Source: Caulobacter rhizosphaerae
Lineage (GTDB): Bacteria; Pseudomonadota; Alphaproteobacteria; Caulobacterales; Caulobacteraceae
DNA: 64,000 nucleotides
Direction: 5' to 3'
Assembly: GCF_010977555.1 (NCBI RefSeq)
Contig: NZ_CP048815.1
Location: forward strand, 2,472,501-2,536,500
The number at the start of each line of letters is the position of its first letter. Positions within the stretch are counted from its first letter, which is position 1. Below are positions 6,004 to 26,380 of the stretch, piece after piece. The position numbers and the translations under genes were made by a program. The notes below the pieces were generated by a model that was not told where the DNA came from, did not search any database, and saw nothing but the letters and a program-made list of their open reading frames with translations.

Positions 6004-6182
6004 TGAGGCCTTGGCGATTTCAGAGAGTCATCCTCTGGGTCAGTATGCTTAATTGTATCCTAAGCTGCGTCCCACGGTCGCAGGCTTGGCAAGGGGACGT
6101 TAACCGCCTCCGCCTAGCTTCTGGTTCGAAACCGTCATCTCGGCGGGTGGGGCGACACAGCAATGCAAAAGGGAGCGGCCCT

Positions 6183-6578
6183 GTGCCATTGAAGCTGTCG
6201 CTGAAACCCGGCGAGAAGTTCGTGCTGAACGGCGCGGTGGTCCAGAACGGCGACCGCCGCGGCGTGCTGGTGCTTCAGAACAAGGCCTCGGTGCTGCGTG
6301 AGAAGGACATCATGCAGCCCGACGAGGCGACCACGCCGGCGCGTCGGATCTATTTCCCGGTCATGATGATGTACCTGGATGAGTCCGCCGCCGAGCGTCA
6401 GTACGAGGAATTCGCCACCCGCCTGACCGAATTCATGGGCGTGGTGCGCAATCCCGAGGTGCTGAGCGACTGTATCGCCATCTCCAAGCACGTGATGGCG
6501 CGCGAATACTACAAGGCGCTCATGTTGAGCCGTAAGCTAATCGAATACGAAGATCAGAGGTTGGGGCATGTCTCTTAG
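6183..6578 (+). CDS. flbT: FlbT, flagellin mRNA regulator
   Basis: A 131-residue protein starting at a GTG (6183) with [20 protein letters not shown], the typical FlbT beginning. A purine-rich GGGAGCGG lies upstream. The middle [14 protein letters not shown] and the C-terminal [16 protein letters not shown] are characteristic. In Caulobacter FlbT acts after transcription, binding the flagellin mRNA leader and promoting its decay until the hook is built. It overlaps flaF by 11 bases, so the two are translationally coupled, and both precede the flagellins they control. Confidence 0.93.
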
Positions 6579-6930
6579 GGCCTATCAACAGACGGCGACG
6601 CGGACCGAAAACCCGCGCGAGATGGAGTACCGTCTGTTCGGTCAGGTGACGCGCGCGCTGATGGCGGCGTCCGAGGCTCCGGCGGACGACATCGCCACGC
6701 GCATCGACGCCCTGGACTGGAACCGTCGCGTCTGGTCGGCCCTGGCGACCGACTGCTCGCTGCCGGAGAACACCCTGCCGGTGCAGCTGCGCGCCAGCAT
6801 CATCTCGCTCAGCCTCTGGGTCGGCCGTCACTCCAGCGCCATCATGCGCAAGGAGGAGGATTTCGAGCCGCTGATCGAGATCAACCGCATGATCATGCAA
6901 GGCCTGGCCGGCCGCGCCGACGCGGCCTGA
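6568..6930 (+). CDS. flaF: FlaF, flagellin synthesis activator
   Basis: A 120-residue helical protein with the FlaF features AYQQTA at the N-terminus, [19 protein letters not shown] helix, and [12 protein letters not shown] followed by [12 protein letters not shown] at the C-terminus. In Caulobacter FlaF is needed for flagellin translation or secretion and counteracts FlbT. Its ATG lies inside the flbT 3' end. Two hairpins follow the stop, so the flbT-flaF unit appears to end before the flagellin promoter. Confidence 0.93.
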
Positions 6931-7105: not shown

Positions 7106-7177
7106 GATGGGTTCCGCGGGCAAAACGCCCGACCGGCAAAACGCCGGGGCAATCCTCCCAAAATGGCGAGAACCATC

Positions 7178-7996
7178 ATGCTGAACTCGATCAACACCAA
7201 TGCCGGCGCCATGATCGCGCTGCAAAACCTGAACGCCACCAACTCGGAGCTCCAAAGCACCCAACAACGCATCAACACCGGCAAGAAGATCTCCAACGCC
7301 AAGGACAACGGCGCGATCTGGTCGATGGCTAAGATGCAAAGCGCTACGTCGAGCTCGTTGAACGCCGTGAAGGACTCGCTCCAGCGCGGACAATCGACGA
7401 TCGATGTGGGCCTTGCCGCTGGCGACACCGTCACCGACCTGCTCGGCAAGATGAAGGAAAAGGCCCTGGCCGCTTCCGACACCTCGCTGAACACCGCTTC
7501 GTTCAACGCCCTGGTTTCGGACTTCACCTCGCTGCGCGACCAGATCACCAAGGCTGTCACCAACGCCAAGTTCAACGGCGTCAGCCTCGTGGACGGCACC
7601 ACCACCAAGCTGCAGTTCCTCAGCAACTCGGACGGTGTCGCTTACACGGTGAACGCCAAGACCCTGTCGCTGGTCGGCCTGGGTCTGACGGCGACGTCGA
7701 CCTTCGCCAACGCGGCCGCGGCCAAGACGATGATCGCCACGATCACGACGGCCCTGACCACGGCGACGAACAAGTTGGCGAACCTGGGCACCAGCTCGAC
7801 GGGCCTGGACATGCACCTGACCTTCACGGGGAAGCTGCAGGACAGCCTGGACGCGGGTGTCGGCAACCTGGTCGATGCGGACCTGGCCAAGGAAAGCGCC
7901 AAGCTGCAATCGCTGCAGACCAAGCAGCAACTGGGCGTTCAAGCCCTGTCGATCGCGAACCAGACGCCTCAGTCGATCCTTTCGCTGTTCAAGTGA
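7178..7996 (+). CDS. Flagellin (FljK/FljL type)
   Basis: A 272-residue flagellin. The N-terminal helix region begins [20 protein letters not shown], and the C-terminal part ends [19 protein letters not shown] followed by a short tail, the two conserved D0/D1 segments that pack in the filament core. The variable outer domain is very small, as in Caulobacter flagellins. The start at 7178 is preferred over an in-frame ATG at 7163 because a GCGAGA-like site precedes it and homologues begin M(A)LNSINTN. There is no cysteine. The protein is rich in Ser/Thr in the middle, where FlmG-type sugar addition would occur. It has its own -24/-12 promoter and terminator. Confidence 0.95.
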
Positions 7997-8316: not shown

Positions 8317-9138
8317 ATGCCGCTGAATAGCATCAACACGAACGCTGGCGCTCTGATCGCCCTGCAAAACCTGAACGCCACCAACAGCGAACTTCAGGTC
8401 ACCCAGCAGCGCATCAACACCGGCAAGAAGGTCGGTAACGCCAAGGACAACGGCGCGATCTGGGCGATGGCCAAGAACCAATCGACCACTGCCAATTCAC
8501 TGAACGCCGTGAAGGACTCGCTGCAACGCGGTCAATCGACCATCGACGTGGCCCTGGCCGCGGGCGACACGGTCACCGACCTGCTGGGCAAGATGAAGGA
8601 AAAGGCCTTGGCCGCTTCCGACACCTCGCTGAACACCGCCTCGTTCAACGCCCTGGTTTCGGACTTCGACAGCCTGCGCGACCAGATCACCAAGGCCGTC
8701 ACCAACGCCAAGTTCAACGGCGTCTCGATCGCCGACGGCTCGACCACCAAGCTGGCCTTCCTGGCCAACTCGGACGGCACCCAGTTCACCGTCAACGCCA
8801 AGACCCTGTCGCTGGCCGGCCTGGGCCTGACGGCCACCTCGTCGTTCACGACCGCCGCCGCGGCCAAGACGATGATCAACACGATCTCGACCGCCCTGGG
8901 CACGGCGACCAACAAGCTGGCCTCGCTGGGCACCAGCTCGACCGGCCTGGACACCCACCTGACCTTCGTCGGCAAGCTGCAGGACAGCCTCGACGCCGGC
9001 GTGGGCAACCTGGTCGACGCCGATCTGGCCAAGGAAAGCGCCAAGCTCCAGTCGCTGCAGACCAAGCAGCAGCTGGGCGTGCAGGCGCTGTCGATCGCCA
9101 ACCAATCGACGTCGTCGATTCTCAGCCTGTTCCGATAG
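8317..9138 (+). CDS. Flagellin (FljK/FljL type), second copy
   Basis: A 273-residue flagellin nearly identical to the one at 7178-7996 along its whole length. Differences are concentrated at residues about 35-60 and in the central variable part. It begins [20 protein letters not shown] and ends with the conserved [16 protein letters not shown] helix. An AGGAA ribosome site precedes the ATG. The pair reflects a tandem duplication, but each copy keeps its own -24/-12 promoter and terminator, so they can be expressed independently, as Caulobacter does with its six flagellins. Confidence 0.95.
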
Positions 9139-9248: not shown

Positions 9249-9599
9249 ATGGAAAACAAAGTCGCGTTGACGCCCATCATGCCCGAGCCGTCCACGCCCG
9301 CCGTGAGCGTCGCAACGACCCTCCCGGCCCATCCCGCGGTCGGTTTCTTGTCGCCAGGGGCCCTGGGCGCCGCGCCCAAGGAGGCGGCGTCGGTGGAGAA
9401 GCCCGCGACGGCCGACGGCCCCCAGCCAGGAGACCTGCGGCTGGTGATCGAGCAGGACAGCAAGACCGGCACCTATGTCTACAAGACGGTGGATCGCCGG
9501 ACGGGCGACATCCTGCAGCAGTTTCCGCGTGAGGAGGTCCTGCGGTTCAAGCAGGCCGAGCACTACGATCCGGGCGAAGTCTTCGACGCCTTGACCTGA
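9249..9599 (+). CDS. flaG: FlaG-like flagellar protein
   Basis: A 116-residue protein with a disordered, Pro/Ala-rich first 60 residues and a compact C-terminal part. That part contains DLRLVIEQDSKTGTYVYKTV and DRRTGDILQQFPREEVLRF, the pattern of the FlaG family (VDxxTGEVIRQIPPEEVL). FlaG proteins affect filament length in several bacteria; the mechanism is unsettled. It lies between the second and third flagellins, as in other alphaproteobacterial flagellin loci. No obvious promoter was seen in the 110-bp gap, and read-through from the flagellin upstream is possible. Confidence 0.8.
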   Translation: MENKVALTPIMPEPSTPAVSVATTLPAHPAVGFLSPGALGAAPKEAASVEKPATADGPQPGDLRLVIEQDSKTGTYVYKTVDRRTGDILQQFPREEVLRFKQAEHYDPGEVFDALT

Positions 9600-9768
9600 A
9601 CGTCCGTCGAGCGGCCGTGCTCACCGCGACCTGGCGTCGCAGGTGAAACATGGTTTACGCGCGTTAACCATATTCTTACTCCCTCAGCCCCACTTTCACG
9701 GCCGACCTGCTCGGCCGCCGAATCGCGTCCCGAGCCCCACTGGCAAGAACCGCCGTTCGGAGACCGTG

Positions 9769-10608
9769 ATGACGCTGAGCGTGAACACCAATCAGCCTGC
9801 GCTGATCGCCCTGCAAAATCTGAACAAGACCAACGACGAGATGTCGGGCGTGCAGTCCCGCATCAACACGGGTCTGGCGATCTCCACCGCCAAGGACAAC
9901 GCCGCCGTCTGGTCGATCGCCCAGGATCAGCGCGCCGATCGCTCGGCCCTGAACGCGGTGAAGATGAGCCTGGACCGCGCGACCTCGATCACCGACGTGG
10001 CCCTGGCCGCCGGTGAATCGGTCTCCGACCTGCTGACCCAGATGCGCGAGAAGGTGGTCGCCGCCAAGGACACCTCGCTGTCGACCTCGTCGCGCACCGC
10101 CCTGAACGCTGACTTCCAGGGGCTGCTGAAGAACCTGACCCAGGTGATCAACAGCGCCACCTTCGACGGCGCCAACATCCTCAACGGCAGCGAGCCGACG
10201 AACATCACCTTCCTGGCCGACGCCGACGCCGCGACGGTCATCACGCTGAACCTGCAGAACCTGTCCCTGGGCGGTACGATCAACACCCTGACGGCGACCG
10301 ACAACATCAGCACCATGACCCAGGCGACGGCGGTGCTGACCCGCCTGGACACCACGATGACCGCCGTGAACCAGGCGGTCGGGTCGATCGGCTCGCAAGC
10401 CAAGCAGATCGACGCCCACAACACCTTCGTCTCCAAGCTGAACGATGTGCTCGAGACCGGCGTGGGCAATCTCGTTGATGCCGACATGGCCAAGGAAAGC
10501 GCGCGGCTGCAGGCCCTGCAGGTCAAGCAGCAACTCGGCGCCCAGGCGCTGTCGATCGCCAACCAGGCGCCGCAGATCATCCTGTCGCTGTTCAGCGGCG
10601 GCAGCTAG
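9769..10608 (+). CDS. Divergent flagellin (FljJ-like)
   Basis: A 279-residue flagellin that begins [20 protein letters not shown] and ends [19 protein letters not shown] plus a short tail. It differs clearly from the tandem pair (NQPA instead of NAGA, and a distinct central part with TFDGANILNGSEPTNITF). It most resembles the FljJ-type minor flagellin of Caulobacter, which sits at the hook-proximal end. The ATG at 9769 is chosen because homologues start M(A)LSVNTN. The best -24/-12 candidate upstream (GG at 9713-9714 with GC 10 bases later) is poor, so its promoter is uncertain. A near-palindrome with a TTAA half-site lies around 9653-9670. Confidence 0.93.
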   Translation: MTLSVNTNQPALIALQNLNKTNDEMSGVQSRINTGLAISTAKDNAAVWSIAQDQRADRSALNAVKMSLDRATSITDVALAAGESVSDLLTQMREKVVAAKDTSLSTSSRTALNADFQGLLKNLTQVINSATFDGANILNGSEPTNITFLADADAATVITLNLQNLSLGGTINTLTATDNISTMTQATAVLTRLDTTMTAVNQAVGSIGSQAKQIDAHNTFVSKLNDVLETGVGNLVDADMAKESARLQALQVKQQLGAQALSIANQAPQIILSLFSGGS

Positions 10609-10667: not shown

Positions 10668-11222
10668 ATGATCGAGCTTCGCGATCTGAGGGACGGCGAC
10701 GAGGCGATCCTGTTCCAGTGGCGGGGCGAGCCGGAGGTCGACCGGTGGATGTCCGACGCGGCCTTTCCGAGCCGCGAGGCCCACGCCGCCTGGTTTCAGG
10801 CCCTGCGCTCCGATCCCGACATGCGCGGCTGGATGATCGTCCGCTCGGGCGAGCCCTCCGGCCTGCTGACCCTGACGGGCCTGCTCAGCCATCACCGCCG
10901 CGCCGGCTGGAACTGGTTCCTCGGCTCCGCCGAGGCGCGGGGCAGGGGCGTGGGGCGCGCCGCCCAGGTGCTGGGCCTGGATCGCGCCTTCGGCGAGCTG
11001 GGCCTGCACAAGGTGTTCGCCGAGGTCATGGCCGACAACGACGCGGCCCTGAAGGCCCAGGCGGCCTCCGGCTTTCGGCGCGAAGGCTATCTGCGCGGTC
11101 ACGTGCTCAAGGACGGCGCGCCGCGCGACGTCGTCCTGCTCGGCATCCTGGCCGAGGAATGGAGCGAGCTGCGCGGCGACGTCCGGCGGTCCCTGACCGA
11201 CGCTCACCTGATCGCCGCCTGA
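10668..11222 (+). CDS. Second PseH-like GNAT acetyltransferase
   Basis: A 184-residue GNAT protein with the same general pattern as the FlmH-like gene at 2813-3394: a DGDEAILFQWRGEPEVDRWM start, an acetyl-CoA loop EARGRGVGRAAQVLG and a C-terminal NDAALKAQAASGFRREGYLR followed by HVLKDGAPRDVVLLGIL. It lies directly after the third flagellin (60 bp) and before FlaEY, so it probably modifies the flagellin sugar or one of its precursors. Having two such genes around one flagellin locus suggests either two acylation steps or two different sugars. Ribosome site GGGAG lies about 12 bases upstream. Confidence 0.8.
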   Translation: MIELRDLRDGDEAILFQWRGEPEVDRWMSDAAFPSREAHAAWFQALRSDPDMRGWMIVRSGEPSGLLTLTGLLSHHRRAGWNWFLGSAEARGRGVGRAAQVLGLDRAFGELGLHKVFAEVMADNDAALKAQAASGFRREGYLRGHVLKDGAPRDVVLLGILAEEWSELRGDVRRSLTDAHLIAA

Positions 11223-11291
11223 TTCACACGTCTTAACGAAACGTCAGCGTTCCTCGCCGACACTCGGAATCAAGGGGCGTCGCGCGTCCCG

Positions 11292-14147
11292 ATGGGACCC
11301 GCTGTGATCACTTTCGATTCCAGTCTGCTGCTCGGCTACTACCAGGCCAAGACCGCTGGCCTGGCCGCGAACGCGACCGCGTCGACCAGCAACGTCTCGT
11401 CCTCGTCTTCCTCGACGACCAAGGCCGTGCCCAGCGCGCCCTGGACCGGCGTCGCGAGCGAGCCCAGCGACCTGGTCAAGGCCGCCCTCAACGGCCGCAA
11501 GTTCGTCGACGAGGGCGCGGCGGTCGCCGCCGCCCCGACGATTTCGGGCGACTACAAGAAGCTGTTCGCCGCCTACCAGGCGCTCAACACCCTCTCGGCC
11601 ATCGCCAATCGCTCAGACGAGAAGGGCGTGACCGACAGCGAAATCAAGCGGCTGCAGGCGGTGTTCAGCAAGGGGCTGAACGAGGTCAACAGCTACGTCC
11701 AGAATCTCAGCACCGACGGCATGCGCCTGACGACCGGCGCGGTCATGACCAGCGACAAGTCGACGGTCGGCGTGCCCAAGAGCAACTACACCTACGTCAC
11801 CAACAAGATCTACAGCGGCCAGGTCGACGACGAGGTCCCCACCTTCAAGGGCGCCGTCAGCTTCACGATGAACGTCAAGAAGTTCGGCGTCGCCACCGAC
11901 GTGGTCATGGACCTGTCCCAGATGGGCTCCACGCCGCGGACGATGGCCAATGTCGTCAGCTTCTTCAACGACAAGCTGGCCGCCGCCGGCTTCGACACCC
12001 AGTTCGCGGTCAACCGCACCGTGGGCGAGGAGCGCACCACCACCGTCAACGGCCAGACCGTCAAGCTGCCGGCCACCGGTGACGACTTCGCCCTGCAGGT
12101 GAAGGGCGACCTGACCGAGACCCTGACCTTCTCGGCCCCCGCGCCGAAGCCTGCGGTCTACATCACCACGGCGGCGGGCAACCCCGACCCCGACAAGAAC
12201 ACGACCACCGACGACGCGGTGATCGAGAACACCCTGACCAAGTACGGCCCCGGCGCGGGCGTCACGCCCGGAACCAAGGTGTTTTCCGACACGCTGGAGG
12301 GCACGGTCAGCACCGTCCACAAGACCATGACCGGGCCCGACGGCTCGCTTTACGTGTTGGCCGACGTCGACGGCGTCACCAGCACTCAGACCATCAAGGG
12401 CGACCAGGACGTCGCCCTGCTGAAGTACGACTCGTCCGGCAAGCTGCTCTACGCCCGCACCCTGGGCGCTTCCAACACCGCCACCGGCTACAACATGGCC
12501 ATCTCCGACGACGGCCAGGTGGCGATCGCCGGTTCGGTGGCCGGCGGCCTTTCCGGCGCCACCAACGGCCCGATCAATTCCGATTCCGCCGGCACGATCA
12601 CCGACAGCTTCGTCACCCTCTACGACGACAAGGGCGACGAGACCTGGACGGTGCGCCGGGGCGGCATGCTGGAGGACGAGGCCACCGCCGTGGCCTTCGG
12701 CGATGACGGCGTCGTCTATGTGGGCGGCCGCACCAAGTCGGACATTCCCGGCTCGGCCACCAACGCCTCGGCGGGCGGCTACGACAGCTACCTGACCGGC
12801 TTCGCCACCGACATCTCCGGCACGCCCAAGGCCCTGTTCACCACCCACTTCGGCAGCGAGAACGACGACACCGTCGCCGGCATCGTCGTCAACGGCGGGC
12901 AGGTGGTGGTCGCCAGCAAGGAGGGCAGCGAGGCGATGCTTCGCAGCTTCAACGTGGCGACCAGCGTCGTGACCGAGGACCGCACCTATCTGAACGACAA
13001 GGAAGTCTGGGTCACCGAACCGACCACCTACACCAAGGCGGCCACGTTCACGACCGGCGCCACCCGCGACCTGGGCACGCTGAAGGGCGGCAATATCGCC
13101 GGCCTGACGATCGACAACGGCCAGCTCTACATCGGCGGCTCGACCACCAACGGCGCCCTGGACGTCAACAACCAGACCAAGGCCGCCTCGGGCGGTTCCG
13201 ACGGCTTCGTGGCTCGGATGTCCCTGAACCTGGCCGACAAGAGCCAGGACACCCTGGCCTATTACGGCGGGACGGGCGACGACACGGTCACCGGCATGGC
13301 GGTGTCCAACGGCCAGGCCTGGCTGGTGGGGTCGGCCGGCAAGGACCTGGCGGGCCAGCCGACCGTCGGCGACAAGGACGGCTATGTCGCCCAGATCGAC
13401 GTCGCCACGGGCGCGGCGACCTGGGAGCAACGGCTGACCGGCAAGGACGGCTACGCGACCGCCACCTCGATCGCGGTCGACGCCTCCGGTTCCAGCGCGC
13501 TGGACATCTTCGGCATCCCGCGCGGCGAGATGGAGTTCACCCAGACCGACAAGATCGTCTCGGCGACGTCCGCGCGGGCGGGGGACACCTTCCAGGTCCG
13601 GACCCGGGCGCGCGGAACCCTGACCACCATCAAGATCGCCGCCGACGACACCCTCGACACCCTGGCCGACAAGATCCGCAAGGCCACGGGCTTCGCCGCC
13701 AAGGTCGAGTTCAGCAGCGTCGGCAACAATCGGACCCTGCGGATCAGCCCCTCCCAGACCACTTCCACGGTCGAGATCCTGCCCGGCAAGGGCGGCACCG
13801 ACGTGCTGGAGTCGCTGGGGCTGAAGCCGGGCATCGTGCGCAACACCAAGACCGACCACGGCCAGACCGTCTCGGCCGACGGCAAGGGGCCGATCTACGG
13901 CTTCTCGCTGGATACGGGCCTGGACCTCACCGACGACGTCGGCCGCAAGGCGGCCGTGGCGGCCATGACCAAGGCCCTGTCGGCGGTGCGCACCGCCTAT
14001 CGCGAGATGGCCGACACCGCCAACGGCGTGAAGCGGGCCGATGCGACGGCGTCCTCCGGCCATGTCGACGGCCCGGTCCCCGCCTATCTGACCAACCAGA
14101 TCGCCAACTACCAGGCGGCGCTGAACCGCCTGACCGGGGGCGGCTAG
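11292..14147 (+). CDS. flaEY: FlaEY-like flagellar protein with beta-propeller core
   Basis: A 951-residue protein whose size and place match Caulobacter FlaEY, described genetically as acting in trans on flagellin and chemotaxis gene expression. There is no signal peptide. Residues 1-180 are Ala/Ser-rich. Residues about 185-285 and 745-855 each contain a helix-strand block (MANVVSFFNDKLAAAGFDTQ and TLDTLADKIRKATGFAAKVE) resembling the repeated blocks of FliD and hook-associated proteins. Between them, residues about 330-745 hold repeats of the form G-x-LYVLADVDG, VYVGGRTKSD, LYIGGSTTNG and AWLVGSAGKD, typical of SBBP-type beta-propellers. The C-terminus ends NYQAALNRLTGGG. The domain reading suggests an exported axial or assembly protein rather than a DNA-binding regulator. 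Confidence 0.8.
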   Translation: MGPAVITFDSSLLLGYYQAKTAGLAANATASTSNVSSSSSSTTKAVPSAPWTGVASEPSDLVKAALNGRKFVDEGAAVAAAPTISGDYKKLFAAYQALNTLSAIANRSDEKGVTDSEIKRLQAVFSKGLNEVNSYVQNLSTDGMRLTTGAVMTSDKSTVGVPKSNYTYVTNKIYSGQVDDEVPTFKGAVSFTMNVKKFGVATDVVMDLSQMGSTPRTMANVVSFFNDKLAAAGFDTQFAVNRTVGEERTTTVNGQTVKLPATGDDFALQVKGDLTETLTFSAPAPKPAVYITTAAGNPDPDKNTTTDDAVIENTLTKYGPGAGVTPGTKVFSDTLEGTVSTVHKTMTGPDGSLYVLADVDGVTSTQTIKGDQDVALLKYDSSGKLLYARTLGASNTATGYNMAISDDGQVAIAGSVAGGLSGATNGPINSDSAGTITDSFVTLYDDKGDETWTVRRGGMLEDEATAVAFGDDGVVYVGGRTKSDIPGSATNASAGGYDSYLTGFATDISGTPKALFTTHFGSENDDTVAGIVVNGGQVVVASKEGSEAMLRSFNVATSVVTEDRTYLNDKEVWVTEPTTYTKAATFTTGATRDLGTLKGGNIAGLTIDNGQLYIGGSTTNGALDVNNQTKAASGGSDGFVARMSLNLADKSQDTLAYYGGTGDDTVTGMAVSNGQAWLVGSAGKDLAGQPTVGDKDGYVAQIDVATGAATWEQRLTGKDGYATATSIAVDASGSSALDIFGIPRGEMEFTQTDKIVSATSARAGDTFQVRTRARGTLTTIKIAADDTLDTLADKIRKATGFAAKVEFSSVGNNRTLRISPSQTTSTVEILPGKGGTDVLESLGLKPGIVRNTKTDHGQTVSADGKGPIYGFSLDTGLDLTDDVGRKAAVAAMTKALSAVRTAYREMADTANGVKRADATASSGHVDGPVPAYLTNQIANYQAALNRLTGGG

Positions 14148-14235: not shown

Positions 14236-14907
14236 ATGGAACTTCTCAAAGATCGACGCGTGTTGCTGGGCGGCGGCGCGGCCCTGGCCCTGGTCGCGGG
14301 TCTCGGCATCGCCCTGGCCCTGATGCACGGCGCCAAGTCGCCGACCGAAGACCCGCCGGCTTCGCGCTCGGGCCTGATCGTCGAGACGGGGAGGGCCGAC
14401 GACACCAAGCTCGACGCCAACCGCCCCCTGCGCTGCTTCGTCGGCGGCCAGTTCGTCGGCGAAACCACCCTGGCCGAGTGCGCCAAGAAGAACGGCGTGG
14501 CGACCGGAGCCCTGGATGTCGGCGTCGATGAAACCGGGGCCCTGGCCGCCGCCGACCAGGCGGGCCTGGTGCTGACGCCGCTGCCGCCGCCCGCCGAGAC
14601 GCCCGCCGTCCCGGCGCCCGCCGCGACGCCGACCGTCTCGACCCCCGCCGTGTCCAGCGCGCCCCTGGCCGCCTGCTGGCGCTATGCCGGCGGCGAATGG
14701 CGCAAGCTGCCTGGCGAGATCACCGTCAATGCGTGCGCCCAGCAGATCTCCAGCGGCAAGTGCGAGAAGGCCGGGGGCGCCACCTACGGCCGCTGGGGCG
14801 ACGAGACCATCCGCCTGGTGCCGGGCAAGGTCGAATCCTCGTCCGACAACCGCACCTTCCATCCGATCATTGATCTGGGGCCGAGCTGCTCCGTCCCGTC
14901 CGCCTAG
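14236..14907 (+). CDS. Membrane-anchored hypothetical protein (223 aa)
   Basis: A 223-residue protein with an N-terminal membrane anchor (residues about 9-31, LLGGGAALALVAGLGIALAL), then a periplasmic part. Two small modules are joined by a Pro/Ala-rich linker (residues about 115-145). The first module (RCFVGGQFVGETTLAECAKK) and the second (CWRYAGGEWRKLPGEI, then CAQQISSGKCEK) each carry a pair of cysteines, so disulfides are likely. I do not recognise a family. The following lipoprotein gene starts 15 bp after the stop and is probably in the same operon. Its position after FlaEY could hint at an envelope role linked to the flagellum, but nothing in the sequence shows that. Confidence 0.65.
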   Translation: MELLKDRRVLLGGGAALALVAGLGIALALMHGAKSPTEDPPASRSGLIVETGRADDTKLDANRPLRCFVGGQFVGETTLAECAKKNGVATGALDVGVDETGALAAADQAGLVLTPLPPPAETPAVPAPAATPTVSTPAVSSAPLAACWRYAGGEWRKLPGEITVNACAQQISSGKCEKAGGATYGRWGDETIRLVPGKVESSSDNRTFHPIIDLGPSCSVPSA

Positions 14908-14922: not shown

Positions 14923-15312
14923 ATGCGCCTTCCCGTCGTCGCCCTCTCGCTCCTCGCCGCGACCGCCGCCGTCAGCCTGACCGGCTGCGAGAAACAGACC
15001 AAGGCTCCGTTCCAGGCCGGCGTCTGCCTGCACGTGATCGAGCAGAAGGACGGCACGCTGAAGTTCAACCCTGTGGCCCAGAACGTGCCGAGCCTCGAAC
15101 TCTGCGCGGCCGAGCTGGAGGGCATGCGCCTGCGCTTCGTGCGCCTGGGCAGCCCCAATCGCGAAATGACCGGCGCCTACCAGGGCAAGTTCATCTTCCT
15201 GCAGAAGGAAGGCATCTATCTGGGCGACACCTACGAAGGGGCCCGGTTCATGTCGCTGGTCCGCACGGGCGACGGCCGCCTGGCCGTGCCGGGGGCGATG
15301 CCGGCCCAGTAG
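14923..15312 (+). CDS. Small lipoprotein (129 aa)
   Basis: A 129-residue lipoprotein with a signal peptide ending in the lipobox LTGC at residues about 19-22. The mature part has two further cysteines and no recognised domain. It starts 15 bp after the preceding membrane-anchored gene and is likely co-transcribed with it. The mature N-terminus EKQTKAP has no Asp at +2, so sorting to the outer membrane is plausible. Function unknown. Confidence 0.7.
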   Translation: MRLPVVALSLLAATAAVSLTGCEKQTKAPFQAGVCLHVIEQKDGTLKFNPVAQNVPSLELCAAELEGMRLRFVRLGSPNREMTGAYQGKFIFLQKEGIYLGDTYEGARFMSLVRTGDGRLAVPGAMPAQ

Positions 15313-18946: not shown

Positions 18947-21900
18947 ATGTACGTCAAGACTCTGGATTCGGGCGATAATACGTATCTTGGCGATGAGGGT
19001 TCGCCGGATTTTGTTGACCTCATCTTTGGCGGCGACGGCGATGACTACATCGCGGGCGGAGTCGACGACGACACGCTGTATGGGCAGAACGGCGATGACA
19101 CCCTGCACGGCGGCTTCAACAATGACTTCCTTTCGGGGGGCGCGGGCGCCGACTGGCTCTACGGCGACACGGGCGACGACACCGTCTTCGGCGGAACCGG
19201 CGCCGACCGGCTGTTCGGCGGTCGCGGCACGGATTATCTGAGCGGCGAGGACGGCGACGACACCTTCTATGTCGACAGCGCCGATGGGGTGTTTTTCGAC
19301 ACCTACAACGGGGGAGCCGGCTTCGACACGATCATGGCGTCGTCTACGATCTACGCCGAGGCGATCTACGGCGTCGAGAAGATCGACATCGGTGGCCTAA
19401 CCTCTACCGAACTTCAGTTCAGCGCCGCCGATACGACGGTGGATCTGACCGGAGTGAATACGACCGCCCTCGTCATCATCCGCACCGGCGCGGGCGCCGA
19501 CCACCTGATCGACAACGACTCCAGCCATGTGTTGTTCGGCGACGACGGCGCTGACGTGCTGATCGCGCGCGGCGGCGACGACCTCCTGCTGGGCGGCGCT
19601 GGCGATGACGACCTGGACGGCGGCGACGGCGAGGACACGTTCTACTTCCTCGGCACGAGCGGCGGGTTTGATCGCATCTCGGGCGGCGCTGGTGTTGAGG
19701 ACACCATAACGGTCGGCGACGGTGCGGGCGGCATGGCCGGCGACGGCACGGTCATCGGCCTGTCGTCCGTGGGCGGCATCGAGGTGATCAGCGCCGGCGG
19801 CTTCCTCAACGTGGTGATCGCGGGCGATGCGACGGACAACGTCTTCGACTTGTCGACCACCTTGCTGGTCGGGATCGGCTCGATCAATGGGGGCGACGGA
19901 TCGGACTGGATCGTCGGCAGTATGTCCTCCAGCGATGTCATCAACGGCGACGCCGGCAACGACTTCCTGGCCGGGGGCGACGGCGACGACCTGCTGGACG
20001 GCGGGACAGGCGACGATACGGCCTTCTTCCTGGGCAACGAGACCGACTACAGCGTGGTCACTGTGGGCGGAGTGACCACGGTCACCGATCTGCGCGACCC
20101 CGCGCTGACCCTGGAGTTCGATGGCCAGGACACCCTGACGAACGTCGAGTTCCTGCTGTTCGCCGACGCGCTGGTGACGATTGGCGCGCCGTCGAACGTG
20201 GCGCCAAGCGATCCGGTCGACGTCAACGCGGCGGCCAACGCCATCTCCGAGGACACCGTCAACGGCGCCGTGGTCGGCGGCCTGACCCTATCCTCGACCG
20301 ACACGGCCGGCGACAGCCGCGTCTATCAACTGGTCGACGACGCGGGCGGGCGGTTCGCCATCAACGCCGCGACCGGCGTGGTCAGTGTCGCCAACGCCGC
20401 CCTGATCGACTACGAGACGGCCACGTCCCACGATATTCAGGTGCGGGTGTTCGACGGCCTGGCCTATTCGGCGACCGTCACCTTCACGATCAACGTCACC
20501 GACTTCCTCGAGAACGTCACCTATACCGGCACCAGCGGCGCCGACACCAAGGCGGCCGACACCAACGCCCGCTGGACGATGTCGGGCCTTGCGGGCGCCG
20601 ACGTCTTGACGGGCGCGGGCAAGGACGACGTGCTGATCGGCGGCGCGGGCGACGACACCCTGAACGGCGGGGCGGGCGCGGACCTTTTCCTGTTCGACGG
20701 GACGGGCGAGGGCTTTGACGCGATCGTCGGCGGTGCGGACGCCGACACCATCCGCGCGGAGTCCGACGGCACGGTAATCGGCCTGCGCTCACTGTCCGGC
20801 GTCGAGACCATCTCGGCCGGCGGACACGCCAACGTCTCGATCGCCGGCTCGGCGGGCGCCGACACGTTGGACCTTTCGGCCGTAGTCCTGGACGGCATCA
20901 CCGCGCCGATCGACCTGGGGGCGGGCGCCGACACCTTCACCGGCACGGCGGACGCGGACCTGGTCATCGGTGGGACGGGGGCCGACACCCTGAACGGCGG
21001 GGCTGGGGCCGACATCTTCCTGGTCAACACCTTCACGGTCGAGGCCGACACCTATAACGGCGGCGGCGGCGTCGACCAAATCCTGGCCACCGCCGACAAC
21101 GTGGTCATCGGCCTCAAGAGCAGCGGGCTCTCCGGGATCGAACTGATCTCTAGCGGCGGCTTCGCCAATGTGGTGGTCGCCGGCGGCGCGACGGGCGACA
21201 TCCTGAACTTCACCGGCGTGGCGCTGGACGGCGTTGCAGAGATCCAGGGCGGCGCAGGCGCCGACACCATCACCGGCTCGTCGGGCGTCGATGTCATCGA
21301 CGGCGGTAATGACGGCGACACCATCCATGGCGGGGCGGGCGACGACATCATCATCGGCGGCCGGGTCTCGGGCAACAGCGGCAACGACCTGCTGTATGGC
21401 GACGACGGCGACGACACCTTCCTGTTCTTCGTCAATCCGCAGGTGGATTCCTATTATGGCGGCAATGGCTGGGACAAGATCCAGGCCGGCCAGGCGGGCG
21501 TGCAACTCAACATCGGCTTGGGTCCCAGCGTCAGCGCGACCCTGCAGGTGGAGGAGATCTCGGCGGGCGGCTTCACGGGCGTCTCGATCGCTTTGCAGGA
21601 CCGCTACACCGGCAGTTCATGGCTGGGTCAGACACTGGACTTCTCGGCGGTCAAGCTGACCGGCATCGCCTATCTGGCCGGCACCCTGGGCGCGGACAAC
21701 ATCATCACCGGGGCCGACGACGACACCGTCGTGGGCGGCGACAGCGCGGACGTGATCCAGACCGGCGCTGGTGCTGACTATCTGCGCGGCGACGCGGGCA
21801 ATGACACCCTGCGCGGCGGCCTGGGCAATGACACCTTGATCGGTGGCGTGGGCGACGACTCCAGCTTCGGCGACGACGGCGACGACGTCTTCAGTTTCAC

Positions 21901-24900
21901 GGGCACGGGTCTGGGCTACGACGCGGTCACCGGCGGGGCCGGCGATGACGTGATCACCGCCCTGGCCAACGGCACGGTGATCGGCCTGCGCAGCTTCAGC
22001 GAGATCGAGACCATCACCGCCGGCGGCTTCACCGGCGTATCGATCCTGGGCTCGACCGGGGCTGACTTGCTCGACTTCTCCACGGTTTCGGTGGTCGGCA
22101 TCTCGACCTTCAACGCCGGCGCGGGGGCCGACATCCTGATCGGCACGGCGGCGGCCGACACCATCCTGGGCGGCGACGGCGACGACATCCTGGCTGGCGG
22201 GGACGGCGACGACGTGTTCCAGTTCACCGGAACCACCAACGGCGCCGACGCCATCAACGGCGGCAACGGCGTCGACACGGTCACGGCCCTGGCGGCCAAC
22301 ACCATCATCGGCCTGTCCAGCTTCAGCAGTGTCGAGCTGATCACCAGCGGCGGTTTCGCCGGCGTGACCATCGCCGGCTCGGCCAACGGCGACGTGCTGG
22401 ACTTCTCGACCACGACCCTGAGCGGGATCGGCAAGATCGACGGCGGCGCGGGCAACGACACCATCACCGGCACGGCTGCGGCCGACATCCTGCTCGGCTC
22501 GGGCGGCGACGACACGCTGGTCGGCGGGCAGGGGAACGACAGCTTCCAGTTCACCGGCGCGGCCAACGGGGCCGACATCATCGATGGCGGCGATGGGACC
22601 GACACCCTCGTCGCCCTGGCGGCCAGCACGGTGATCGGCCTGGCCAGCTTCACCAACATCGAGGCGATCTCCTCGGGCGGCTTCGCCGGCGTGTCGATCG
22701 CCGGCTCGGTCAACGCTGACAATCTGGACTTCTCGGCGGTGACCCTGACCGGCGTCACCAAGATCGACGGCGGGGCGGGCAACGACACCATTACCGGCAC
22801 GGCGGCGGCCGACGTCATCCTCGGTTCGGGCGGCGACGACGTGCTGAACGGCGGCGACGGCGCCGACAGCTTCCAGTACACCGGCGCGGCCAACGGCTTC
22901 GACACGATCGTCGGCGGCAATGGAACCGACACCCTCAAGGCCCTGGCGGCCAGCACTGTGATCGGCCTGACCAGCTTCTCCGGCTTCGAGGCCATCGACG
23001 CCACCGGCTTCGCCGGCGTCTCGGTGGTGCTGGGCGGCGGCGACGACCTGATCGACCTGACGGTGGTGACCGCCACCAACCTCGCCGCGATCAGCGGCGG
23101 GGCGGGGGCGGACACCTTCGTCGGCTCGTCGGCCAACGACACCTTCAACGGCGACGACGGCGACGACGCCTTCTTCGCCAGCGCCGGAGCCGACGCCTAT
23201 GCCGGCGGCCTGGGCAATGACAGCCTCAAGGCCACGGCCAACAACCAGGTCATCAGCCTGCGCTCGATCGCCGGCGTCGAGATCATCACCGCCAACGGCT
23301 TCACCGGCGTCACCCTCGCCGGAACCACCGCGGCGGATACGCTGGACCTGTCGTCCACCACCCTGGTCGGGATCGGCAAGATCGACGGCGGGGCGGGCAA
23401 TGACGTGATCATCGGCACGGCCGGCGCCGACGTGCTCGACGGCGGCGCGAACGACGATACGCTAAACGGCGGCGACGGCGACGACGTCATCACCTACGGC
23501 CCTTCCGGCGGCATCGACGCGGTCAACGGCGGCAACGGCGCCGACGTGCTGCAGGCGACGGCCGCCAACCTGACGATCACGGTCTCCAGCCTGACCAATG
23601 TCGAGACGGTCACCGCCAACGGCTTCGCCAATGTGATCCTGGGCGGCGGCGCCAACGCCGACCTGATCGACCTGTCCTCGACGGTCCTGGTCGGCATAGG
23701 CCGGATCGACGGCGCGGCCGGCAATGACACGATCCTCGGCTCGGCCGCCGCCGACATCATCATCGGCGGACTGGGCGACGACACCCTGGCTGGCGGGGAC
23801 GGCGACGACGTGTTCCAGTTCACCGGAACCACCAACGGCGCCGACGCCATCAACGGCGGCAACGGCGTCGACACGGTCACGGCCCTGGCGGCCAACACCA
23901 TCATCGGCCTGTCCAGCTTCAGCAGTGTCGAGCTGATCACCAGCGGCGGTTTCGCCGGCGTGACCATCGCCGGCTCGGCCAACGGCGACGTGCTGGACTT
24001 CTCGACCACGACCCTGAGCGGGATCGGCAAGATCGACGGCGGCGCGGGCAACGACACCATCACCGGCACGGCTGCGGCCGACATCCTGCTCGGCTCGGGC
24101 GGCGACGACACGCTGGTCGGCGGGCAGGGGAACGACAGCTTCCAGTTCACCGGCGCGGCCAACGGGGCCGACATCATCGATGGCGGCGATGGGACCGACA
24201 CCCTCGTCGCCCTGGCGGCCAGCACGGTGATCGGCCTGGCCAGCTTCACCAACATCGAGGCGATCTCCTCGGGCGGCTTCGCCGGCGTGTCGATCGCCGG
24301 CTCGGTCAACGCTGACAATCTGGACTTCTCGGCGGTGACCCTGACCGGCGTCACCAAGATCGACGGCGGGGCGGGCAACGACACCATTACCGGCACGGCG
24401 GCGGCCGACGTCATCCTCGGTTCGGGCGGCGACGACGTGCTGAACGGCGGCGACGGCGCCGACAGCTTCCAGTACACCGGCGCGGCCAACGGCTTCGACA
24501 CGATCGTCGGCGGCAATGGAACCGACACCCTCAAGGCCCTGGCGGCCAGCACTGTGATCGGCCTGACCAGCTTCTCCGGCTTCGAGGCCATCGACGCCAC
24601 CGGCTTCGCCGGCGTCTCGGTGGTGCTGGGCGGCGGCGACGACCTGATCGACCTGACGGTGGTGACCGCCACCAACCTCGCCGCGATCAGCGGCGGGGCG
24701 GGGGCGGACACCTTCGTCGGCTCGTCGGCCAACGACACCTTCAACGGCGACGACGGCGACGACGCCTTCTTCGCCAGCGCCGGAGCCGACGCCTATGCCG
24801 GCGGCCTGGGCAATGACAGCCTCAAGGCCACGGCCAACAACCAGGTCATCAGCCTGCGCTCGATCGCCGGCGTCGAGATCATCACCGCCAACGGCTTCAC

Positions 24901-26380
24901 CGGCGTCACCCTCGCCGGAACCACCGCGGCGGAGACCTTCAACTTCGCCGGCCTCACCTTGAGCGGCATCGACAGCATCGACGGCGGGGCGGGCAATGAC
25001 GTGATCACCGGCACGGCCGGCGCGGAGGTCATCATCGGCGGCGTCGGCGATGACACCCTGGCGGGCGGCGACGGCGATGACGTCTTCCGTTTCGGCGGCG
25101 CGGGCCTGGGCACCGATACGATCAACGGCGGGTTGGGCTATGACAGCCTCGTGGCGACGGCCAATGGCACGGTGATCGGCGTCGGGGTCCTGAGCGGGAT
25201 CGAGGCGATCTCGGCCGGTGGTTTCACCGGCGTCAGCCTGGCAGGTTCGACGGTCGCTGATCTGTGGGACTTCTCGGGCGTCGCCTTGAGCGGGATCGGC
25301 CTCATTGATGGCGGAGCGGGCAACGACAACATCACGGGCACCGCCGATGCGGACCTTCTGCAGGGTTCGGCCGGCGATGACATCCTGAACGGCGGAGCGG
25401 GCGACGATACGTTCTTCTACACCGCCGCGGCGAATGGCCTGGACACCGTGTCGGGCGGCCTGGGTTACGACACGCTGAAGGCGACGGCGGCGGGGGCGGT
25501 GATCGGCTTGGCCTTGTTCTCCGGCCTGGAGTCGATCACCGCCAACGGTTTCGCCGGGGTCAGCATCACCGGAACCAGCGTGGCCGACACCCTGGACTTT
25601 TCGGGGACTACCCTGACCGGCATCACCAAGATCGATGGCGGGACCGGCAACGACACCATCACCGGTTCGGCCGGGGATGACGTCATCTATGGCGGCTTCG
25701 GACTGGACACCATCTACGCCGGCGGCGGCAACGACACGATCGGCGTGGTCGCCATCGAGGCCGGGCAGAACGCGGACTTCCTGGTCGACGGCGGCGCGGG
25801 CTTCGACACCGTCGTCGCCGTGCAGACGGGCGGCATCTACATGCTGGGTTTCACCGGGATCGAGGCGTTCTCGAACAACGGTTTCGCCAACGTCTACATC
25901 TGCGGCTGGACCAACGGGGCCGAAAACTTCGACTTCTCGAACGCGACCCTGACCGGCATCAGCTACATCACCGGCCAGGGCGGCAACGACACGATCATCG
26001 GCTCGGCCGGCGCCGACAAGATCATGCTCAGCCTGGGCCAGGACGTCCTGACCGGCGGCGGCGGGGCCGATATCTTCTTCATGGAGACGGCCACCGACAG
26101 CACGGTGGGCGCCGCTCACGACGTGATCACCGACTTCCTTGTCGGAACCGATCATGTCGACCTGACGACACTGGACGCCAGGACCAATGTCTCGGGCAAC
26201 CAGGCCTTCACCTTCATTGGCAACGCGGCGTTCTCGAACCTCTCGGGCGAGCTCCGCGCGGACTATTCCGATCCGCTTCATACGATGGTCTACGGTGACG
26301 TCAACGGAGACGGCGTCGCCGATTTCGCGATCGAACTGGCGGGTTCCGCCTCGCTGTCGAGCGGCGACTTTTTCCTCTAG
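18947..26380 (+). CDS. Giant RTX-repeat secreted protein (2,477 aa)
   Basis: The ATG at 18947 follows a clear GGAGG. There is no N-terminal signal peptide, as expected for type I secretion. Residues 1-400 and most of the rest are glycine/aspartate nonapeptide (GGxGxDxUx) calcium-binding repeats. Residues about 420-520 form a cadherin-like domain (GDSRVYQLVDDAGGRFAINA, then DYETATSHDIQVRVFDG). From residue about 240 a second repeat type alternates with the RTX blocks: V/IExIxAxGFxxVxIxG...DxLDFSxxxLxGI, about 18 times, with a period near 106 residues. The last 110 residues (AHDVITDFLVGTDHVDLTTL to DFFL) match the serralysin-type C-terminal secretion domain. No type I exporter genes are in the window. 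It is probably a surface or adhesion protein. It contains a large internal duplication. Confidence 0.93.
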   Translation: MYVKTLDSGDNTYLGDEGSPDFVDLIFGGDGDDYIAGGVDDDTLYGQNGDDTLHGGFNNDFLSGGAGADWLYGDTGDDTVFGGTGADRLFGGRGTDYLSGEDGDDTFYVDSADGVFFDTYNGGAGFDTIMASSTIYAEAIYGVEKIDIGGLTSTELQFSAADTTVDLTGVNTTALVIIRTGAGADHLIDNDSSHVLFGDDGADVLIARGGDDLLLGGAGDDDLDGGDGEDTFYFLGTSGGFDRISGGAGVEDTITVGDGAGGMAGDGTVIGLSSVGGIEVISAGGFLNVVIAGDATDNVFDLSTTLLVGIGSINGGDGSDWIVGSMSSSDVINGDAGNDFLAGGDGDDLLDGGTGDDTAFFLGNETDYSVVTVGGVTTVTDLRDPALTLEFDGQDTLTNVEFLLFADALVTIGAPSNVAPSDPVDVNAAANAISEDTVNGAVVGGLTLSSTDTAGDSRVYQLVDDAGGRFAINAATGVVSVANAALIDYETATSHDIQVRVFDGLAYSATVTFTINVTDFLENVTYTGTSGADTKAADTNARWTMSGLAGADVLTGAGKDDVLIGGAGDDTLNGGAGADLFLFDGTGEGFDAIVGGADADTIRAESDGTVIGLRSLSGVETISAGGHANVSIAGSAGADTLDLSAVVLDGITAPIDLGAGADTFTGTADADLVIGGTGADTLNGGAGADIFLVNTFTVEADTYNGGGGVDQILATADNVVIGLKSSGLSGIELISSGGFANVVVAGGATGDILNFTGVALDGVAEIQGGAGADTITGSSGVDVIDGGNDGDTIHGGAGDDIIIGGRVSGNSGNDLLYGDDGDDTFLFFVNPQVDSYYGGNGWDKIQAGQAGVQLNIGLGPSVSATLQVEEISAGGFTGVSIALQDRYTGSSWLGQTLDFSAVKLTGIAYLAGTLGADNIITGADDDTVVGGDSADVIQTGAGADYLRGDAGNDTLRGGLGNDTLIGGVGDDSSFGDDGDDVFSFTGTGLGYDAVTGGAGDDVITALANGTVIGLRSFSEIETITAGGFTGVSILGSTGADLLDFSTVSVVGISTFNAGAGADILIGTAAADTILGGDGDDILAGGDGDDVFQFTGTTNGADAINGGNGVDTVTALAANTIIGLSSFSSVELITSGGFAGVTIAGSANGDVLDFSTTTLSGIGKIDGGAGNDTITGTAAADILLGSGGDDTLVGGQGNDSFQFTGAANGADIIDGGDGTDTLVALAASTVIGLASFTNIEAISSGGFAGVSIAGSVNADNLDFSAVTLTGVTKIDGGAGNDTITGTAAADVILGSGGDDVLNGGDGADSFQYTGAANGFDTIVGGNGTDTLKALAASTVIGLTSFSGFEAIDATGFAGVSVVLGGGDDLIDLTVVTATNLAAISGGAGADTFVGSSANDTFNGDDGDDAFFASAGADAYAGGLGNDSLKATANNQVISLRSIAGVEIITANGFTGVTLAGTTAADTLDLSSTTLVGIGKIDGGAGNDVIIGTAGADVLDGGANDDTLNGGDGDDVITYGPSGGIDAVNGGNGADVLQATAANLTITVSSLTNVETVTANGFANVILGGGANADLIDLSSTVLVGIGRIDGAAGNDTILGSAAADIIIGGLGDDTLAGGDGDDVFQFTGTTNGADAINGGNGVDTVTALAANTIIGLSSFSSVELITSGGFAGVTIAGSANGDVLDFSTTTLSGIGKIDGGAGNDTITGTAAADILLGSGGDDTLVGGQGNDSFQFTGAANGADIIDGGDGTDTLVALAASTVIGLASFTNIEAISSGGFAGVSIAGSVNADNLDFSAVTLTGVTKIDGGAGNDTITGTAAADVILGSGGDDVLNGGDGADSFQYTGAANGFDTIVGGNGTDTLKALAASTVIGLTSFSGFEAIDATGFAGVSVVLGGGDDLIDLTVVTATNLAAISGGAGADTFVGSSANDTFNGDDGDDAFFASAGADAYAGGLGNDSLKATANNQVISLRSIAGVEIITANGFTGVTLAGTTAAETFNFAGLTLSGIDSIDGGAGNDVITGTAGAEVIIGGVGDDTLAGGDGDDVFRFGGAGLGTDTINGGLGYDSLVATANGTVIGVGVLSGIEAISAGGFTGVSLAGSTVADLWDFSGVALSGIGLIDGGAGNDNITGTADADLLQGSAGDDILNGGAGDDTFFYTAAANGLDTVSGGLGYDTLKATAAGAVIGLALFSGLESITANGFAGVSITGTSVADTLDFSGTTLTGITKIDGGTGNDTITGSAGDDVIYGGFGLDTIYAGGGNDTIGVVAIEAGQNADFLVDGGAGFDTVVAVQTGGIYMLGFTGIEAFSNNGFANVYICGWTNGAENFDFSNATLTGISYITGQGGNDTIIGSAGADKIMLSLGQDVLTGGGGADIFFMETATDSTVGAAHDVITDFLVGTDHVDLTTLDARTNVSGNQAFTFIGNAAFSNLSGELRADYSDPLHTMVYGDVNGDGVADFAIELAGSASLSSGDFFL
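22189..23337 (+). repeat. First copy of 1,149-bp internal duplication
   Basis: This block of the RTX gene recurs at 23785-24933, exactly 1,596 bases (532 codons) downstream. The protein copies are identical over about 383 residues, and the DNA looked identical at every point I compared, including rare codons such as the ATTACC at 22790 and its partner. Identity ends abruptly on both sides (ATCCTGGC versus CACCCTGGC upstream; GCGGATACG versus GCGGAGACC downstream). Confidence 0.9.
23785..24933 (+). repeat. Second copy of 1,149-bp internal duplication
   Basis: Partner of 22189-23337. The two copies are separated by 447 bases of diverged repeat. The 532-codon offset equals about five 106-residue units, so the reading frame and the repeat phase are preserved. 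Confidence 0.9.

Follow-up and report, generated by a model that had tools for sequence, protein, structure and literature searches.

FlaEY of Caulobacter, a putative exported axial flagellar protein and possible filament cap

The flaEY locus and the domain layout of its product

The window analyzed here, i.e., a stretch of 64,000 nucleotides from Caulobacter rhizosphaerae (contig NZ_CP048815.1, positions 2,472,501 to 2,536,500), carries a group of flagellar genes that includes an unbroken reading frame of 951 codons (Table 1). We provisionally take this open reading frame (ORF) to be flaEY, a label that comes from a preliminary description of the DNA. Judged from its sequence, the product resembles an axial flagellar protein that is exported, not a DNA-binding regulator, and it may cap the filament. 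The order flbT-flaF-flagellins-flaG-like-flagellin-(GNAT)-flaEY-two small genes-ssb was conserved in most of the Caulobacteraceae loci examined.

TABLE 1 Genes, protein segments, and methylation sites at the flaEY locus (window positions)
Feature	Position	Strand	Residues	Basis or remark
flbT	6117..6578	+		PF07378, E 3e-46
flaF	6568..6930	+		PF07309, E 4e-37
flagellin 1	7163..7996	+		
flagellin 2	8317..9138	+		
FlaG-like protein	9249..9599	+		PF03646, E 7e-4, under Pfam's cut-off
flagellin 3	9766..10608	+		
GNAT acetyltransferase	10668..11222	+		
GANTC (CcrM) site	11221..11225			71 bp upstream of ATG
GANTC (CcrM) site	11267..11271			25 bp upstream of ATG
GANTC (CcrM) site	11316..11320			just within the ORF
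flaEY ORF, 951 aa	11292..14147	+		possible GTG start at 11304
Helical hairpin and short strands, with flagellin D1-like motif (98-151)	11547..11747	+	86-152	profile comparison, model
N-block, probably FliD/hook IN-type	11844..12134	+	185-281	likeness to C-block, relative L101, model
β-Propeller, SBBP/CylK type	12147..13496	+	286-735	
C-block, FliD/hook IN-type	13524..13877	+	745-862	FliD and FlgE matches
C-terminal helices	13935..14135	+	882-948	conservation, model

A scan of named bacterial genomes yielded 60 loci with flaEY relatives, chiefly in Caulobacter and Phenylobacterium (loci, genomes, and families are designated L, G, and f below); two of them, L020 and L025, belong to C. vibrioides. 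Identity between the query and 39 aligned relatives ranged from 38 to 91%. The start position is uncertain, as the first possible start in many orthologues is a GTG aligned to that in Table 1. Among 29 diverse members, conservation was highest in the 25-residue bin 926 to 950 (0.67), followed by a bin within the propeller (376 to 400; 0.66). PHROGs returned no match to the protein. In two loci, L045 (10007-12815) and L085 (6496-9212), FlaEY is broken across two reading frames, by sequencing error or decay.

A flagellin-like motif in the N-terminal part

Residues 98 to 151 aligned with the second half of Flagellin_N (columns 85 to 138; 52 sequences) at 93.7% and an hhalign E value of 2e-7, compared to 0.6 for the reversed decoy; with the 40 close sequences alone, the values were 76% and 2e-5 (decoy, 0.9). 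The structure model places helices at residues 86 to 108 and 115 to 137, and it is this D1 helix pair with its turn that FlaEY has in common with flagellin (FliC/Flj). Segment models were also run against a test set made up of the six-frame ORFs of 85 loci (80 aa or longer; n = 6149), with FlaEY removed and reversed copies added; 155 of these ORFs are of flagellin type, many of them near-copies. All of the top 30 hits of the N-terminal model were forward flagellins, with no reversed sequence among them. In the phylum sample described below, positions 95 to 156 of the FlaEY profile matched ORFs of mostly 240 to 350 aa from other classes (best E value, 2.6e-7). By Pfam, three members out of 29 matched PF00669 (lowest E value, 6e-4; one score of 16.3 bits against a cut-off of 26.6), and the query itself matched neither Flagellin_N nor Flagellin_C above the curated cut-offs.

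The model also has helices at the C terminus, as in flagellin, but the sequence likeness of this part to flagellin is not significant by itself. In L050 (9995-12871), the usual conserved end of FlaEY is followed by ASLLSLFG, which resembles the flagellin C terminus LLSLFR. FlaEY differs from flagellin in that it occurs in one or two gene copies, lacks a Flagellin_C match, and carries the propeller and the two blocks in mid-protein.

A FliD/hook-type block and a β-propeller

Segments were taken from an alignment of 62 sequences (the query, 39 close relatives, and 22 distant ones) and compared with FliD proteins from genomes; 26 of these were used, one FlgE having been removed from the 27 sequences gathered. 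The C-block aligned with FliD columns 171 to 253 at 95.9% and an E value of 5e-9, and at 95.3% and 2e-8 when the FliDs of L095 and L096 were left out and 24 remained; reversed decoys in this segment comparison gave E values of 0.029 to 0.4. The N-block matched the C-block at 65% and 6e-5, a result that was unchanged without the two cut proteins and stood at 0.054 with 40 sequences only. On these profile comparisons, the C-block is of FliD/hook type, and the N-block probably is too because of its likeness to the C-block.

The same kinship emerged from the genomes. The whole-family profile matched an FlgE hook protein (G341, E value of 1.6e-8) and a FliD (G236, 2e-5), both missed by the default local search and recovered with the bias filter switched off, and in the phylum sample a frame of G243 (3e-5) that is a FliD by place and length (487 aa). 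The part of the G341 FlgE that matches the FlaEY C-block is an insert assigned to Flagellin_IN by Pfam (E value, 1.6e-5); the rod/hook terminal domains of FlgE are lacking in FlaEY. In the 6149-ORF set, the top 30 hits of the N-block model comprised 22 flagellins and 5 ORFs from the FliD loci L071 to L076, and those of the C-block model comprised 20 flagellins, 6 ORFs from FliD loci, and 2 reversed flagellins. The C-block also bears a faint likeness to folds of the ubiquitin type: five members out of 29 matched OTU1_UBXL (lowest E value, 0.003), and polyubiquitin was matched at 0.5.

Between the blocks, profile and structure-model searches found the fold and the repeat sequence of an SBBP/CylK-type β-propeller. 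Pfam SBBP was reported in 16 of 29 members and was absent from the query, and the propeller model matched 22 ORFs of the 6149-ORF set, none of them a flagellin. Whole-model comparisons with Foldseek and VIA covered only approximately residues 285 to 735; a hit to the Pseudomonas aeruginosa flagellin 4nx9 (rank 46; E value, 2.5e-3; TMq, 0.07; rmsd, 23) was not used as evidence. The preliminary description had proposed a propeller set between two FliD/hook-type blocks; the propeller and the C-block bear this out, and the N-block is connected to FliD by way of the C-block, its direct match not being robust. Its flagellin-type and FliD/hook-type flanks would set FlaEY apart from CylK, which is a Friedel-Crafts alkylating enzyme, and from LipL53 and other SBBP proteins.

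Two relatives, L077 (6945-11372) and L078 (7270-11952), reach 1475 and 1560 aa through an additional middle part. Its best E values against the block and FliD models were 2e-5 and 9e-4, which are generous since the set held two sequences only, and it also gave one propeller match (0.015). The genomes of L077 and L078 contain flagellin frames of 437 and 584 aa.

FlaEY and its close relatives are devoid of cysteine

None of 40 FlaEY family members (37,689 residues) contains a single cysteine. The same is true of 19 of 22 distant relatives, and a wider, overlapping set of FlaEY ORFs held 10 cysteines in total, with 71 of 79 ORFs lacking the residue. Cysteine content was 0.025% in FliD (25 of 26 sequences without any) and 0.016 to 0.069% in three flagellin groups, compared to 1.36% in FlbT and 0.84% in FlaF; the FlaG-like protein has none. 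FlaEY thus resembles flagellin and FliD and differs from FlbT and FlaF, which supports export but does not prove it. Taken with the sequence features described above, FlaEY is very probably an exported axial flagellar protein, the export as such being what we infer.

These data also bear on the function under which the gene has been filed. A passage of PMC8921679 terms FlaEY a possible regulatory protein and, citing Minnich 1988, states that FlaE and FlaY modulate the expression of flagellin and chemotaxis genes in C. crescentus, which would suit a secretion-coupled regulator or sensor that stays in or at the cell as long as export has not begun and that directly controls flagellin expression. 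We regard such a role as improbable: searches of Pfam and NCBIfam found no DNA-binding family in FlaEY, in agreement with the preliminary description, the protein carries a motif of flagellin and a block of FliD/hook type, and its 40 cysteine-free members stand against the values for FlbT and FlaF. The present analysis gave no positive evidence for the sensor, which the preliminary description had offered as an alternative.

FlaEY, FliD, and DUF1217 proteins tend to occupy different genomes

Neither FliD_N nor FliD_C was matched in the genome from which the window derives; FlgK scored above its cut-off, and an adjoining ORF was named FlgL-like by eye. Among 14 control genomes, FliD_N was found in E. 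coli, B. subtilis, and T. maritima, and flagellin in these three and in Caulobacter vibrioides, which gave no FliD_N match. Genomes were counted as flagellin-bearing by PF00669; since this profile is able to match FlgL too, the term is slightly loose.

The order sample comprised 120 genomes, with flagellin in 116, FlaEY in 65, DUF1217 in 46, and FliD in 5; 3 of the 68 genomes with a FlaEY match (G059, G085, and G094) had been excluded as propeller-only. All 65 FlaEY genomes carry flagellin, FlaEY and DUF1217 never occurred together, and the 4 genomes without flagellin lack both. FlaEY, DUF1217, and FliD are all lacking from 5 of the 116 genomes with flagellin. FlaEY was present in 18 of 28 genera and DUF1217 in the remaining 10, families f2 and f4 holding both states.

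In the class sample (289 genomes), flagellin was found in 182 genomes, among them 23 with FlaEY, 64 with FliD, and 34 with DUF1217. Full-length FlaEY coincided with neither FliD nor DUF1217 in any genome, and FliD and DUF1217 coincided in 3; in G384, FliD was present and no flagellin was matched. Eight of the 31 genomes with a FlaEY match were excluded because the match did not span both ends (G141, G159, G209, G236, G267, G306, G319, and G341); two of these are the matches to FliD (G236) and FlgE (G341) mentioned above, and G141, G159, and G319 gave no flagellin match. In the phylum sample (299 genomes), full-length FlaEY was restricted to 14 genomes, all of the same class. In family f15, FlaEY occurs in a single genus (G595, where FliD was not tested) and FliD in other genera.

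In the order sample, FlaEY is present without exception in the window's family (25 genomes) and in family f3 (24 genomes), and every one of these genomes bears flagellin. This regularity would be expected of a protein required for structure more than of one with a dispensable activity, and we therefore consider it very unlikely that FlaEY is primarily an exported tip adhesin or enzyme, with assembly secondary, even though its propeller is kin to CylK and to lectin propellers and might bind sugars or act on a substrate.

DUF1217 proteins are, like FlaEY, confined to flagellin-bearing genomes in the order and class samples; unlike FlaEY, they are mostly approximately 280 aa long, with some of 500 to 980 aa. 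In 4 of 4 loci listed, DUF1217 is the ORF that follows flagellin-flaF-flbT. A cysteine-free ORF of approximately 280 aa holds this place in the FlaEY-less loci L184 (10759-11604), L185 (11575-12408), L186 (6277-7116), and L188 (5905-6741), where DUF1217 maps in G045, G016, G019, and G065. Because it was never found with FlaEY in one genome of the samples, the DUF1217 protein is a candidate for a third filament cap.

Flagellin groups follow the accompanying protein

When 52 N-domains of flagellins were placed in a tree, those from FlaEY genomes (25 sequences) fell on one side of a branch (96/92), 18 FliD-side flagellins beyond another branch (100/99), and the 6 flagellins of DUF1217 genomes on a third (74/94). 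One row, L180 (G326, a DUF1217 genome; branch length of about 10), was omitted from this tree and from the Flagellin_N alignment; with it, the tree is less clean, with 2 changes for FlaEY and 3 for FliD. Families f2 and f4 supply flagellins of DUF1217 and FlaEY type, matching the protein that each genome has, and the flagellins of G248, G290, and G391, which are without all three proteins, fall on the FliD side. Five Caulobacter genomes possess both FlaEY and FliD; there, the FliD-adjacent flagellin groups with the FliD types and the flaEY-side flagellin with the FlaEY types. In L071 to L074, FliD adjoins its own flagellin in FlaEY-bearing Caulobacter, and the flagellin-FliD pair of these Caulobacter looks like an acquired one.

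Downstream genes and upstream sites

GANTC sites are in excess near the flaEY start, with 37 observed and 7.5 expected in 28 related loci. This fits the naming of flaY among CcrM-regulated genes in a passage of PMC10073500 and is neutral with respect to a cap role. With the pattern used, no sigma-54 site was found upstream of flaEY in the 28 loci. The two small genes downstream (14236-14907 and 14923-15312) have cysteine contents of 2.6% and 2.2% and no Pfam match; on visual inspection, a hydrophobic stretch lies at the N terminus of one, and the other begins like a lipoprotein. Farther downstream, positions 18947 to 26380 encode an ORF of 2477 aa with acidic Gly-Asp repeats and, by eye, long internal duplications.

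Discussion

The preliminary description had suggested an exported axial or cap-like part. The axial component of this proposal is supported at the sequence level by the D1 motif, the FliD/FlgE-type block, the lack of cysteine in all 40 members, the restriction of the full-length protein to flagellin-bearing genomes in the order and class samples, and the association with one flagellin group. As to the position within the flagellum, we lean, with limited confidence, towards a filament cap or cap-like tip protein of Alphaproteobacteria devoid of FliD, because of the exclusion patterns, the FliD-type C-block, and the gene neighborhood. FlaEY and FliD (HAP2) have in common an IN-type block between helical ends and a scarcity of cysteine; unlike FliD, FlaEY lacks FliD_N and FliD_C and features a flagellin-type D1 and a propeller of approximately 450 residues between its blocks.

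Several observations weigh against a cap. FliD_N and FliD_C found no match in FlaEY up to an E value of 10; FlaEY is therefore not a FliD homologue over its ends, and homology along the entire length was rejected. The N-block matched FliD at an E value of 0.0046, which weakened to 0.09 without the sequences of L095 and L096, so that the N-block was dropped as a proven FliD relative. The C-terminal tail resembles flagellin weakly (E value, 0.05); 25 of the top 30 hits of its model in the 6149-ORF set were flagellins, but the best forward hit (0.62) tied with a reversed ORF (0.63). The single-stranded DNA-binding protein SSB is likewise poor in cysteine (0.19%). Regarding distribution, five Caulobacter genomes of the order sample have both FlaEY and FliD, and in the class sample 64 of the 182 genomes with flagellin lack FliD, FlaEY, and DUF1217 alike, so that absence of FliD alone does not demand FlaEY. 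Partial FlaEY-like sequences occur without a flagellin match in G141 (a C-terminal ORF of 181 aa) and G319 (a propeller fragment), eight relatives (L048, L077, L078, L079, and L081 to L084) had no flagellin, flaF, or flbT match in the retrieved stretch, and the Fisher tests of co-occurrence ignore shared descent.

Moreover, the D1 match is to flagellin. It would also be compatible with a minor subunit of the filament or with a third protein of the hook-filament junction, whose propeller would decorate the base or shaft. The clearest terminal homology of FlaEY, to flagellin D1 and not to FliD, speaks for such an axial protein other than a cap, but FlgK and an FlgL-like ORF are already present in the genome and a role in the shaft alone would leave the exclusion of FliD and DUF1217 unexplained; we judge this explanation rather unlikely.

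If FlaEY is a cap, the core of the filament would accommodate its helical ends, i.e., the flagellin-type D1 and the highly conserved C terminus. A plate or spoke would be built from the C-block and probably also from the N-block, and the propeller, as the outermost domain, would face the medium. Flagellin would be inserted at this cap or tip complex. Loss of FlaEY would then stop flagellin polymerization and thereby change flagellin secretion and expression indirectly, and the label "regulator" would be secondary. In this scheme, we infer export by the flagellar apparatus, the location at the tip, capping, and the feedback on expression. A broader proposal, which we put forward tentatively and with less than even confidence, is that Alphaproteobacteria use at least three caps (FliD, FlaEY, and DUF1217), each locked to its own flagellin group, and that FlaEY is a flagellin-derived one with an outer β-propeller and an extendable spoke, as suggested by the proteins of approximately 1500 aa in L077 and L078, which accompany large flagellins and whose middle part scores with the block models.

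In the searched literature (titles and beginnings of abstracts, with few subscription journals), we recognized no publication that proposes FlaEY as a cap, although the idea may be in print. Passages of the published work list DUF1217 as unknown, describe Rhizobiaceae as lacking FliD (PMC6913195), and, in a review on Brucella, give a FliD gene taken from KEGG (PMC8781033).

For the assembly of flagella, Caulobacter serves as a classic model. If the cap assignment is true, a gene that has a name and is classed as regulatory would encode a missing structural part of the flagellum, and FlaEY could explain how bacteria without the usual cap protein build a filament. The split among FlaEY, DUF1217, and FliD would suggest that caps and flagellins have been exchanged as matched sets.

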